DNA of 39,611 nucleotides from a virus. The stretch spans positions 1-39,611 of the IMG/VR virus record IMGVR_UViG_3300035695_000012; one strand, given 5' to 3'. Under the pieces are notes generated by a model. The model saw nothing but the letters and a program-made list of their open reading frames with translations. It did not search any database and had not been told where the DNA came from. Positions 22,001 to 25,691 of this stretch are shown piece by piece. Position numbers and translations under genes: made by a program. Position 1 is the stretch's first letter, and the number at the start of each line of letters is the position of its first letter.

Positions 22001-24211
22001 TTAAATTCTCACTCTGCGGCGTATTCGCTGCGTGGCGTACATATCCTCTAGAGTGGATTTGTTGCCGGGTCCAACAATCAGCGGGCGTTCCGGCCTGACG
22101 ACATAGGCTTGCGGCTCGTTCTTCCAGGCAATGGCTGCCATTCTGGCGGCATCTGCCGGATGAGACGTATTGTGAACTATGGCCCCGTTAGAAAGGCTGA
22201 ACTCACCAATACTAGGAACGGTGAGACACCATGTATCTTCAATCTCCCGAAGCTTTCTTACGTGCTTTATAACGAGCCGATGCGGCTCGGTCCGCCCCGC
22301 GATCACGGTATGCCTGGACCTTGCAAAGCGGCGTGCAATAGACCTGAGAGTATCCCGATTTCCGAAGAAGGGCTTGGAAGGTATTTTTGCATTGTGGGCA
22401 TTCTCTTGGTTCGCGAGCCCAGACGTTCCATCCCTTTGATCGTTCGGCATGACGGCGATGCCAAAGACGCCCCTCTTCTGACCTGTGCCATGCTGCGGCG
22501 GCTTCGCGCGCATCCGCGCTGAATGTTCGTTTGGGCTGCCCGGCAAGCGTTTCGCGAAGGTGAACCGCAGCGGGAAGGCACTCCAAATTGTCGAGCTGGT
22601 TGTTGGTTCGATCTGCATCTCGATGGTGGATATGACAGCCATCGGGGATTGGGCCAAAAGCCACGCGCCAAACTTCGCGATGAAGGTACTTACCGCCTCT
22701 CTTGAAATATTTTTCAGTCGGGAAAATGCGGTAGAGGCCGCCGTCAAAATATTGCGTGAGGGGATCGAGACCGACTGGATTTGCGAACCCGGCGTCAGGC
22801 TCTCGGCGGATTTCCACCCGCTCTCCGTTTTGAATAAATGATCCGGCGTGCATCTCACCGAATAGCCGTCTGCGAACGCCACCTCCACAAGTGGGGCATT
22901 TTTCCAGGTGATCCGGGGATTGGTGTATCGCCTCCAGCCATATGACGTCAGAACCTCTCCTTCTGGGGGAAGGTTCATTATCTGACACGTTCCGTTACGC
23001 GTCAATATTTCTGTCTCGCCGGTGAAGCACCAATTATGCTTGGGGGCCATGCGGAAGGCTTTGCGGTCCTCATCGTATTCCCGCTCGTACTGCCTCAGCG
23101 CCTCGATGCCCTCGCGGCACTTGGTGGCGTCGAACCATGTGGTGGGGAGCATCTGGCGAACGGCCTGGATACCATCCTGAAGGCTAAGGTCGGGGACGAT
23201 AGAGAGGTTTTCCATGCCCAGATGTTCGGCCAATTGCTCGACCACGGCCTTTCCGGCGGCGGCCAAGGTCTTGGCCTTGGCGTCGTGGGGCAGGAAATGC
23301 CTACCATAATGGTAGGGTTTGGTCTTCACGACATGGGCGATCTCGGAAATCGAGGCTCCGGAGACGGCGTAAAAGTCGATGAAGTGGATTTCTCCACGGA
23401 TCACCTGATACCACCAGATGGCGGTGTCGTCGCGATAGCCCAGGTCCCATGCGGTGTAGGTCTGGAGCGCCGGATCGTAGGGGACATCACGGATGCGACC
23501 CTCTTCCCCGGCTTTCCGCATTTCCTTGCCGTAGAAGGCCCCGATGATGGCGGCCTCAAAGGAACACTCCATCTCCTGGAGCCACTGATCCTCGCTCATT
23601 CCCGCGCGAAGAGAGTTCATTTCGCTGGGGGGCAGGATGCCGCTCTCGGAGGCTTTCAGGAGAAGCGAGTACCATTCCCCGTGGCTGCGCTGGGCGGTGT
23701 CGTGGATTTCCCAGAACTGATTTTTGCCCTTTGGCGTGCCGAGGAACGTCGCCCATCCCTGCTTGTCGGCCAGGGCGGGTCGAAAAACCGAACCCCAGAC
23801 GGAGGGTTTGTAGTCCCCGAACTCATCGAGGGTGAGACCGTCGAAACCGAGACCACGGGCCGCGTCAGCATTGTCGGCTCCGAACAGCATGATGCGGCTG
23901 TCATTGATGAGATCAACGTAGAGTTCCGCTTCATTGGCCCGGCGGATGATCGGCTTGGCGAAGTGCTTCAGGTAGCCCCAAGCGACGGACTTGGCCTGAC
24001 TGCGGAACGGCGCGACATAGCCGAAGAGGGGATTGAACGTGGTCGCGGTGACGGCGGCTCTAATCTTGTCATTGATCGCCGCGACCGTTTTCCCGGCCCG
24101 CCGATGCACCACATTGCAGGCCCAGCGCTGAGTGCGGTTATGGAATGGAATAAAGGCCTTGCGGGGCGTGTAGTCGATGCGGATGATCGACTCTGACTTA
24201 CTGGATGTCAC
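22001..24211 (-). CDS. terL: Terminase large subunit interrupted by an intein
   Basis: DNA-packaging motor. The host protein (exteins) is 449 residues: Walker A RRAGKT (37-42), Walker B LTLDE (126-130), the first nuclease aspartate in AWDLGYRDDTAIW (D256), PHDAK (D310), and then HNW joined to TSHPADAARM. The third catalytic aspartate is in that last block. The intein occupies residues 395-681, between W394 and T682, so it splits the nuclease domain just before the last active-site motif. A functional motor therefore needs splicing. The start is GTG 24211, overlapping the small subunit by 14 bases; the stop is TAA at 22003-22001. After splicing the enzyme matches headful-type terminases in layout. 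The long middle of the intein frame is overlapped by the HNH gene. Confidence 0.9.
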   Translation of the reverse strand: MTSSKSESIIRIDYTPRKAFIPFHNRTQRWACNVVHRRAGKTVAAINDKIRAAVTATTFNPLFGYVAPFRSQAKSVAWGYLKHFAKPIIRRANEAELYVDLINDSRIMLFGADNADAARGLGFDGLTLDEFGDYKPSVWGSVFRPALADKQGWATFLGTPKGKNQFWEIHDTAQRSHGEWYSLLLKASESGILPPSEMNSLRAGMSEDQWLQEMECSFEAAIIGAFYGKEMRKAGEEGRIRDVPYDPALQTYTAWDLGYRDDTAIWWYQVIRGEIHFIDFYAVSGASISEIAHVVKTKPYHYGRHFLPHDAKAKTLAAAGKAVVEQLAEHLGMENLSIVPDLSLQDGIQAVRQMLPTTWFDATKCREGIEALRQYEREYDEDRKAFRMAPKHNWCFTGETEILTRNGTCQIMNLPPEGEVLTSYGWRRYTNPRITWKNAPLVEVAFADGYSVRCTPDHLFKTESGWKSAESLTPGSQIQSVSIPSRNILTAASTAFSRLKNISREAVSTFIAKFGAWLLAQSPMAVISTIEMQIEPTTSSTIWSAFPLRFTFAKRLPGSPNEHSARMRAKPPQHGTGQKRGVFGIAVMPNDQRDGTSGLANQENAHNAKIPSKPFFGNRDTLRSIARRFARSRHTVIAGRTEPHRLVIKHVRKLREIEDTWCLTVPSIGEFSLSNGAIVHNTSHPADAARMAAIAWKNEPQAYVVRPERPLIVGPGNKSTLEDMYATQRIRRRVRI
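22169..23029 (-). mobile_element. Intein in TerL (no in-frame endonuclease)
   Basis: An 861-base, 287-residue insertion. Block A starts with Cys1 in CFTGETEILTRNG; block B is GYSVRCTPDHLF with TPDH (TxxH), followed by the usual KTESGWKSAESLTPGSQI; the C-terminal part is DTWCLTVPSIGEFSLSNG and AIVHN, with the terminal His-Asn and a Thr as the first C-extein residue. These show a Hint domain able to splice. Block F has Cys where Asp is common, and the usual F-block His is not seen. The linker of about 150 residues in this frame lacks LAGLIDADG or HNH motifs. The homing nuclease lies in the -1 frame instead. Confidence 0.93.
22239..22988 (-). CDS. HNH homing endonuclease nested out of frame inside the intein
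   Basis: A 249-residue HNH nuclease in the -1 frame relative to TerL, on the same strand. Residues 102-138 (LHREVW, then FGPIPDGCHIHHRDADRTNN and QLDNLECLP) are a textbook HNH core. There are N-terminal CPTCGGG (31-37) and C-terminal CPQC ... YCTPLC (197-222) zinc-type cysteines, a YFDGGLYRIFPTEKY strand region and a W-H-R-S-E-E-G-R-L-W-H repeat region. The gene starts 41 bases after the intein Cys1 codon and its stop falls just before block F, so it fills the intein almost exactly. The start is GTG 22988 without a good ribosome site; an AGAAGGAGAGG sequence lies at 22964-22954, inside the gene. Expression could also be by frameshift. Confidence 0.9.
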   Translation of the reverse strand: MSDNEPSPRRRGSDVIWLEAIHQSPDHLEKCPTCGGGVRRRLFGEMHAGSFIQNGERVEIRREPDAGFANPVGLDPLTQYFDGGLYRIFPTEKYFKRGGKYLHREVWRVAFGPIPDGCHIHHRDADRTNNQLDNLECLPAAVHLRETLAGQPKRTFSADAREAAAAWHRSEEGRLWHRRHAERSKGWNVWAREPRECPQCKNTFQALLRKSGYSQVYCTPLCKVQAYRDRGADRAASARYKARKKASGD

Positions 24212-25064: not shown

Positions 25065-25691
25065 TTAAACCCAATGGTCGAGGAGCCATCTCTCTGATAT
25101 TTCATGCATTTTTTCGTGCCCGTGGAAGTAGCAGATGCGGGTGTCGAGGAGGCCGGTTTCGCGGACGCCGGGCAGCACGCCGCCCTTCCACGAGCGGACA
25201 TGGCCAGGGAAGAGGTCATCGATGTAGTCGTGGGGTTGGCGGCGCATCCAGATCATGTCGTTGGAGCCGTCGTGGCGGGTCCAGATGTGGCTGTGGCCTG
25301 CGGGTACGAGGCAGACGCCGTTGCAGGCCATGTAGGGGCTGTTGGGATCGCGTGGGAGAGCGAGTTTCGGGCTGGTGAGGGCGTACGCGGCCAGGTGGTC
25401 GATATTTCCGGTGATGACGGTGTCGAGGCCCATGATGATCTGGGGTTCGTTCAGTTCGTAGAGCTGGATGCAGCTTGCGTAGCCGGGCTCGGGATCGTCG
25501 AGGAGGCGGTGCTCGATCTGGGCGTGAGCGTAGGTGCGGTGTTTCTCGGACCAGACGAGGAAGCGGAAGGGCTCTGAGAGGTTGCGCTGGCAGCCCCGGT
25601 AGAGCTTTTCGACCCATGACTCATCGTACATGGTGGAGAAGTCATAGCTTTTCGGGTTCGAATTCCAAAACTGTGTGCAGATGGAGATCAC
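25065..25691 (-). CDS. Phage glycosyltransferase-like protein (GT-A type)
   Basis: A 208-residue product. It has LYELNEPQIIMGLDTVITGN (an acidic 'D-x-V' strand that resembles the GT-A metal-site region), ACNGVCLVPAGHSHIWTRHD and ICYFHGHEKMHEISERWLLD. The closing 'FHGxxKxHE' motif is found in small glycosyltransferase-like proteins of phages and bacteria. It could add a sugar to host surface polysaccharide, virion protein or DNA. The start is GTG 25691, overlapping the stop of the small gene before (GTGA). It forms a cassette with the upstream acyltransferase. Confidence 0.7.
   Translation of the reverse strand: MISICTQFWNSNPKSYDFSTMYDESWVEKLYRGCQRNLSEPFRFLVWSEKHRTYAHAQIEHRLLDDPEPGYASCIQLYELNEPQIIMGLDTVITGNIDHLAAYALTSPKLALPRDPNSPYMACNGVCLVPAGHSHIWTRHDGSNDMIWMRRQPHDYIDDLFPGHVRSWKGGVLPGVRETGLLDTRICYFHGHEKMHEISERWLLDHWV

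Follow-up and report, generated by a model that had tools for sequence, protein, structure and literature searches.

We report that the gene for the terminase large subunit (terL) in the virus record IMGVR_UViG_3300035695_000012, one complete linear IMG/VR record of 39,611 bases that is called the window hereafter, carries an in-frame intein within which an HNH endonuclease gene is nested in the -1 frame. An initial annotation of this DNA had proposed this arrangement, and its coordinates and frames proved correct. The architecture is real, widespread and unannotated; indeed, mobile inteins and HNH homing nucleases are both known, and it is their out-of-frame coding arrangement that would surprise specialists. 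Very probably, the whole is a mobile intein with a homing endonuclease encoded by a gene of its own, overprinted at -1 and transcribed separately, in line with the initial suggestion of a homing unit compressed by overlap or of a nuclease settled in a mini-intein, which stood up to every check that was run. The main features are:

22001..24211, minus strand: terL open reading frame (ORF), single and continuous over 736 codons, with the intein in frame
23030..24211, minus strand: terL N-extein, comprising the ATPase and the larger part of the RNase H-like nuclease domain (PF17289 Terminase_6C; phrog_2, terminase large subunit)
22169..23029, minus strand: intein of 287 amino acids, from Cys1 (23029) to His-Asn (Asn287, 22169) (PF14890, TIGR01445; AlphaFold2 model)
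22001..22168, minus strand: terL C-extein, starting Thr(+1)-SHPADAARM (intein-free relatives read W^C/T-SHPADA)
22239..22988, minus strand: out-of-frame ORF in the intein, at -1, ending at a stop of its own ahead of block F
22239..22943, minus strand: nested HNH gene, predicted homing endonuclease, -1 relative to the intein, 234 codons plus stop (PF13392, frame analysis, AlphaFold2 model)
22887..22898, minus strand: HNH N-terminal zinc knuckle CPTC, over intein codons 44-48 (HNH-frame translation; synonymous observed/expected 0.00 at N44 and 0.01 at L47)
22557..22691, minus strand: HNH_3 catalytic core with H106, H107, N119 and H128 (PF13392 and invariant residues)
22323..22400, minus strand: C-terminal zinc-finger cysteines C182, C185, C203 and C207 of the HNH protein (invariant in 60 sequences)

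The window intein splits the TerL nuclease motif at HNW^TSHPADA and holds all the residues of class 1 HINT splicing, namely Cys1, TPDH as the TxxH of block B, VHN and Thr+1. Its match to PF14890 (E 1.4e-7, 31.9 bits) lies slightly below the Pfam cutoff of 35.8, and the NCBIfam intein_Nterm cutoff is passed. In the AlphaFold2 model, the predicted local distance difference test (pLDDT) reaches 96-98 at residues 1-88 and 248-287 and is ~42 over the linker between them; Foldseek matches this model to many intein structures (best E 5e-6), with the HINT fold. Among the relatives described below, the C-terminal Asn, Cys1 and C/S/T at +1 are present in 99/99 delimited units, and PF14890 is matched by 54/54 inteins. 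Judging from these residues, the window intein would be expected to splice at the protein level.

The nested ORF matches HNH_3 (PF13392) with 55 bits against a cutoff of 24.8, and the same domain is found in 60/60 HNH proteins, in which H106, H107, N119, H128 and the zinc cysteines are invariant. The AlphaFold2 model of the HNH protein has a mean pLDDT of 85, including residues 31-72, a beta-rich region of the N-terminal part whose codons lie in the stretch that is constrained in both frames (see below), and its best structural match is I-HmuI (1u3e; 78 residues, root-mean-square deviation 3.0) with a moderate Z of 6.5; a sequence search of PDB chains with the HNH profile gave no match. The initial annotation started this gene at GTG 22988 (249 codons), which is probably not the start: the codon lacks a good Shine-Dalgarno site and relatives do not retain it as a start, they use ATG at the codon corresponding to 22943-22941, and the GTG was set aside because most relatives hold a stop between it and the conserved ATG.

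Relatives were collected by tblastn against phage records and by three IMG/VR scans (with the HNH alignment, TerL and the HNH protein), which gave ~190 loci. For HNH genes enclosed in an uninterrupted intein ORF, the register is -1 in 109/109 loci with an intein-model match, as well as in two others with a long open frame. A further 34 nested loci came from a scan of genome contigs, in archaea and many bacterial phyla, all in an intein-bearing ORF and all at -1, and a later pattern scan added ~17 contigs. In total, ~155 contigs (phages, bacteria and archaea) carry a nested unit, always at -1, a count from which duplicate fetches were removed and which includes some near-copies and a few units cut by contig ends. 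A search for mixed -1/+1 registers among the nested loci found -1 only, and a DNA-level search of the phage collection returned no matches. Every homologue keeps the -1 frame open, and a sequencing frameshift is excluded by ~155 separate assemblies, which settles two doubts raised with the initial annotation. Note that many annotated TerL proteins hide such an unannotated nuclease gene: as an example, the GenBank records of Tetrasphaera phage TJE1, Acinetobacter phage Highwayman and Rhodobacteraceae phage LS06 annotate TerL only.

Variants of the arrangement were also found. One unit is a nested -1 HNH gene in the intein of a phage portal gene (PF06381) and not of terL (L190, 1421-4459), and a scan with its HNH returned only this unit and one partial relative; another, on a Beijerinckia mobilis contig, is inserted elsewhere in TerL, in the ATPase portion that precedes Terminase_6C (L257, 2261-4585). 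A split form, composed of a TerL-IntN ORF, an HNH gene of the same family and an IntC-TerLC ORF, is present in Lactobacillus phage CL2 (L002, 454-2771) and in L208, L210, L214, L217, L218, L229, L231, L232, L235, L236, L246 and L248, mostly Bacillota contigs; by sequence, terL in these loci appears to be interrupted by a natural split intein, whose two halves flank the homing gene. Free-standing members of the HNH family lie directly downstream of an uninterrupted terL or overlap its end in L009 (2265-2882), L010 (2522-3139), L011 (2507-3118), L012 (2507-3124) and L004 (2468-3040), the carriers including Pseudomonas phage PAE1 and Sphaerotilus phage SN1. As side observations, L260 (2-3706, a Nitrosotalea metagenome-assembled genome) and L263 (2-3958) each hold a single ORF with apparently an in-frame LAGLIDADG domain, followed by an intein with a nested -1 HNH gene, and the intein of L095 (3692-4477), whose HNH gene has an in-frame deletion, falls 25 codons short of its close relatives and may be a decaying unit.

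Both frames are under selection, with a division of the intein into two kinds of stretches:

22754..22945, minus strand: dual-constrained stretch, intein codons 29-92, with block B and the HNH N-terminal domain (synonymous profiles; both proteins predicted folded over most of it)
22280..22759, minus strand: intein linker, codons 91-250, disordered in the intein frame (pLDDT ~42) and HNH-dominated by periodicity and residue retention

In pairwise comparisons of 64 units of the window's clade, substitution periodicity follows the intein frame over codons 1-50, the HNH frame over codons 91-250 and the intein frame again from 251, thus switching frame at intein codons ~90 and ~250. Synonymous ratios from 26 disjoint pairs, scaled to the linker's free third positions in the HNH frame, give an intein-frame change of 0.89 and 1.04 at the two intein-only ends, of 0.54 over codons 29-50 and of 0.45 over codons 51-90; the HNH-frame ratios over the latter two stretches are 0.37 and 0.33, and ~70% of residues are kept in both frames over codons 29-90. 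The lowest values per codon coincide here with two HNH features, the CPxC cysteines (codons 44 and 47) and, at codons 58-63, the GEMxAG motif. By these profiles, about 230 bases are constrained in both frames, strongly over intein codons ~29-92 and weakly over 251-262, and, from the models, about 190 bases would encode two products that are both predicted folded and under selection. Across the linker, amino acids are kept at 0.62 in the HNH frame (with a synonymous ratio of 1.0) against 0.40 in the intein frame, so that the intein frame appears mainly required to be stop-free there. The ~750 bases of double coding that were first claimed are therefore borne out for codons ~29-92 and weakly for 251-262, the linker (91-250) being HNH-dominated. 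Neutral change at the HNH residues, the further doubt attached to that claim, is contradicted by purifying selection in the HNH frame.

The single register has a simple explanation in stop-codon counts. Over the HNH gene, the intein frame holds 0 stops across 99 units, compared with 2.8 per unit after shuffling synonymous HNH codons (median probability of an open frame 0.025), and the third frame holds 19.5 stops on average and at least 7. The register is thus always -1 because only that arrangement can stay open: the intein frame of an HNH_3 zinc-finger gene is nearly stop-free and the other frame stop-rich. For the window alone, the probability of an open frame is 0.29, which is unremarkable, whereas the result over 99 units is remarkable, and the evidence for a non-chance overlap is consequently comparative.

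The first 30 codons of the intein carry conserved promoter-like and ribosome-binding signals for the nested gene:

23000..23005, minus strand: -35-like element TTGACG, intein codons 9-10 (Leu9 codon bias)
22977..22982, minus strand: -10-like element GATAAT, 17 nt past the -35, intein codons 16-18 (Ile17 codon bias; fixed position in 47/53 units)
22954..22960, minus strand: Shine-Dalgarno site GGAGAGG, intein codons 24-26 (GEV) (codon bias)
22941..22943, minus strand: conserved HNH start codon, ~29 codons into the intein (ATG in 42/53 relatives; ATA in the window, the sole case)

In nearly all units of the window's clade, intein codons 9-18 read TTGACR-N17-GATAAT. Leu9 is TTG in 45/50 relatives when 17% is expected from each unit's own TerL codon usage (P 1e-29), and Ile17 is ATA in 46/49 when 18% is expected (P 2e-31), both P values treating related units as independent; free synonymous sites in the compared pairs change about half the time. 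The promoter-like score reaches 10-11 of 12 in 47/53 units, whereas shuffled sequences reach it in 1.2% of cases and the 3' ends of these inteins never do, and the exact 30-base promoter pattern, searched in all IMG/VR contigs, gave 41 matches, 41/41 of them at codons 9-18 of TerL inteins. The synonymous profile stands at 1.0-1.1 over codons 1-8, at 0.0-0.3 over codons 9-18 (except Thr10, 0.86) and at ~1 in the leader, with a dip at Glu25 of the Shine-Dalgarno site and a low value at the A of ATG. In the Shine-Dalgarno codons, GAG is used in 39/45 units (55% expected) and a Gly codon other than GGC in 40/45 (50% expected); going by codon usage, this site is under selection at the nucleotide level. 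The promoter-like block, the Shine-Dalgarno site and the ATG are all kept to a degree that greatly exceeds what the encoded amino acids require. The conserved block in codons 9-18 is thus a predicted sigma70-like promoter, from which the nested gene would be transcribed.

Several points weigh against an overprinted and separately transcribed nuclease gene. The codon-usage P values are too small, since related units were counted as independent, and the frame tests consist of disjoint pairs and codon-usage comparisons and not of a full codon model on a tree. The promoter match rests on the sigma70 consensus, which may not be that of the host's sigma factor, and the 17-base spacer CGTNNCGGA (window 22999-22983, minus strand) is conserved too, which a plain sigma70 promoter would not need. 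In addition, the group B units, whose HNH start lies after block B, are without this promoter and mostly show nothing above shuffles (L005, L088 and L189 hold isolated promoter-pattern matches near the HNH start), so that the support for separate transcription comes from the window's clade only. Finally, the usual ATG is replaced by ATA in the window, whose nuclease may therefore be poorly made. We give almost even chances to the stronger version of this last point, namely that the window nuclease is already dead, the G-to-A change that made ATA (and, by the same base, turned intein Cys30 into Tyr) having left a splicing intein with a silent HNH gene at the beginning of its decay. Such a loss agrees with the ATG of 42/53 relatives and the ATA of the window only, and with the poor quality of the upstream GTG as a start; against it, the promoter-like and Shine-Dalgarno signals, the HNH residues and the open frame are all intact, weak starts at ATA, CTG or GTG are possible, and so is an ATG 30 codons downstream, which would still yield the whole HNH core. 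The sequence thus leaves a window nuclease that may be poorly expressed, either weakly made or silent.

The other explanations are less probable. The 30-base block in codons 9-18 could be another DNA element than a promoter, such as a nuclease binding site, since its spacer is conserved (synonymous observed/expected 0.00 at codon 11) and resembles the DNA of the TerL DAFR motif; we nevertheless consider this rather unlikely, because the hexamers, 17 bases apart, agree closely with sigma70, ATAAT is retained in the -10 where the codon changes from CAG to CCT, and the placement suits a short leader ending in the Shine-Dalgarno site. The block may also be both. That the HNH is a packaging partner of the terminase (HK97 gp74 / GVE2 type) folded into terL, and not a homing nuclease, is improbable to a high degree. 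The passage of PMC10448857 that refers to Kala et al. 2014 places packaging HNH proteins beside terL, and free-standing family members do lie directly beside terL (L009-L012), but the fold and domain are of HNH_3 / I-HmuI type, one unit is located in a portal gene, far-diverged TerLs again hold inteins, at shifted codons, and most close TerL relatives are without a copy at the site (69 intein-free alleles), which indicates that the HNH is dispensable. Similarly improbable is a programmed -1 ribosomal frameshift from the TerL-intein frame, making the HNH as a TerL-HNH fusion: the constant -1 register is indeed the common frameshift direction, but stop counts alone explain it, the HNH start has a conserved Shine-Dalgarno site and ATG with the Shine-Dalgarno codons selected at the nucleotide level, and in L183-L185, L287, L294 and L300 a stop stands right before the HNH ATG, so that an upstream frameshift could not reach the gene. 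A coincidence or fossil, with the intein as the sole functional part and the HNH frame as a by-product, has next to no probability; the window intein frame does stay open in 29% of HNH codon shuffles, but the better retention of HNH than of intein residues across the linker, at a synonymous ratio of 1.0, and the catalytic residues invariant in 60 sequences already refute it for the clade, as far as sequence comparison goes.

Returning to the mobile intein with an overprinted nuclease, its distribution points to mobility. Indeed, 69 TerLs of the same type, 63-77% identical to the window TerL, are without intein and read an uninterrupted W^C/T-SHPADA, thus having Cys or Thr at +1 already. The occupied TerL of L015 and the empty one of L120 are 94% identical, and those of L016 and L101, at 98.7% identity, hold different nested HNH inteins four codons apart. 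In the window's clade, inteins 66-68% identical in DNA occur within TerLs just 23-30% identical, which together with the 69 intein-free alleles indicates mobility. In addition, insertion positions are shifted within one TerL motif (DW^, DWA^, SSH^ and SSHA^), and nested, split and free-standing forms are intermixed in a quick HNH tree, in which the nested label forces at least four changes. From these comparisons, homing would be the simplest account of the distribution.

Under this explanation, reading of the terL frame would yield a TerL precursor in which residues 1-88 and 248-287 of the intein fold as a splicing domain and excise the insert, the ~160-residue middle being a disordered linker. 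One base back, the internal promoter and ribosome-binding site in the first 30 intein codons would give an I-HmuI-like HNH nuclease. This nuclease is predicted to cut terL alleles that are free of the intein, at the conserved nuclease motif (DW^SSHADAFRY) or close to it, and the nested unit would be copied in when the break is repaired. We also consider, as a doubtful extension, an autoregulated and fully overprinted homing cistron, with promoter, ribosome-binding site, start codon and nuclease all encoded across intein codons, in which the nuclease binds the conserved promoter spacer as a candidate operator and represses itself; such self-repression would uncouple the timing of the nuclease from late terL expression. 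The spacer resembles the DNA of the TerL DAFR motif by the insertion site in 7.5/13 positions (background 3.3), a post hoc comparison in which covariation per unit is not convincing and which serves as a lead only. I-TevI acts in this way within an intron.

Homing endonucleases in inteins have so far been regarded either as domains in the intein frame or as genes of their own that separate the halves of a split intein. In our literature search, whose coverage was incomplete, no splicing intein with a nuclease encoded out of frame was described, and the closest published precedent is the ShiLan domain, an HNH gene concealed out of frame within a DNA methylase gene of mycobacteriophages (Arsenault et al. 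2025, PMC11855218). Both units place an HNH gene with flanking zinc fingers wholly within a host gene, out of frame, with the host frame open and a disjunct distribution; the hidden HNH of ShiLan gp65 (L270, 1910-2500) is also at -1 to its host frame, which fits the stop-count explanation, and its 5' end resembles host sequence 3' of the insertion, as may hold for the window unit too. In contrast to the window unit and its full splicing domain, ShiLan has none, both in its authors' analysis and with the intein model used here, and its insert is therefore thought to stay in the methylase. It starts with GTG, has no detectable ribosome-binding site and no reported promoter, and its HNH is distantly related (35 bits to the HNH profile used here).

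Canonical large inteins (PI-SceI, PhoVMA) share with the window unit an endonuclease between blocks B and F, mobility and a conserved host motif. Their endonuclease is a domain of the same frame and polypeptide, whereas the window HNH lies at -1, with another start, its own stop before block F and probably another transcript. The fractured genes reportedly described by Dassa and co-workers in 2009 are split inteins whose halves flank a free-standing homing endonuclease gene. The position of the homing gene between N- and C-intein halves is alike, and the split forms of the same HNH family (L002, L208, L210 and others) resemble them, but the window intein forms one continuous 736-codon ORF; the closest solved intein by profile is gp41-1, which presumably comes from a locus of this fractured type. 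Some phage group I introns hold homing endonucleases with their own promoter, as in I-TevI of the T4 td gene. The window nuclease would resemble I-TevI and I-HmuI, the latter its best structural match, in being expressed separately from the host gene. It differs in that the window unit would splice at the protein level, so that its expression signals must be written in the codons of a functional protein. The nested unit is a natural example of overprinting, well sampled and amenable to dissection at the level of single bases. If expression is indeed separate, an intein can control its nuclease independently of the host gene, and if the autoregulated cistron is true, it would, together with ShiLan and the split forms, define a third general mode in which essential genes can house homing nucleases.

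Two minor observations concern the window as a whole. A reading of the insert as a group I intron was set aside as unsupported, since an Rfam search of the window found no intron and no other RNA. A glycosyltransferase-like gene (phrog_1962; 25065-25691, minus strand) adjoins the packaging genes.

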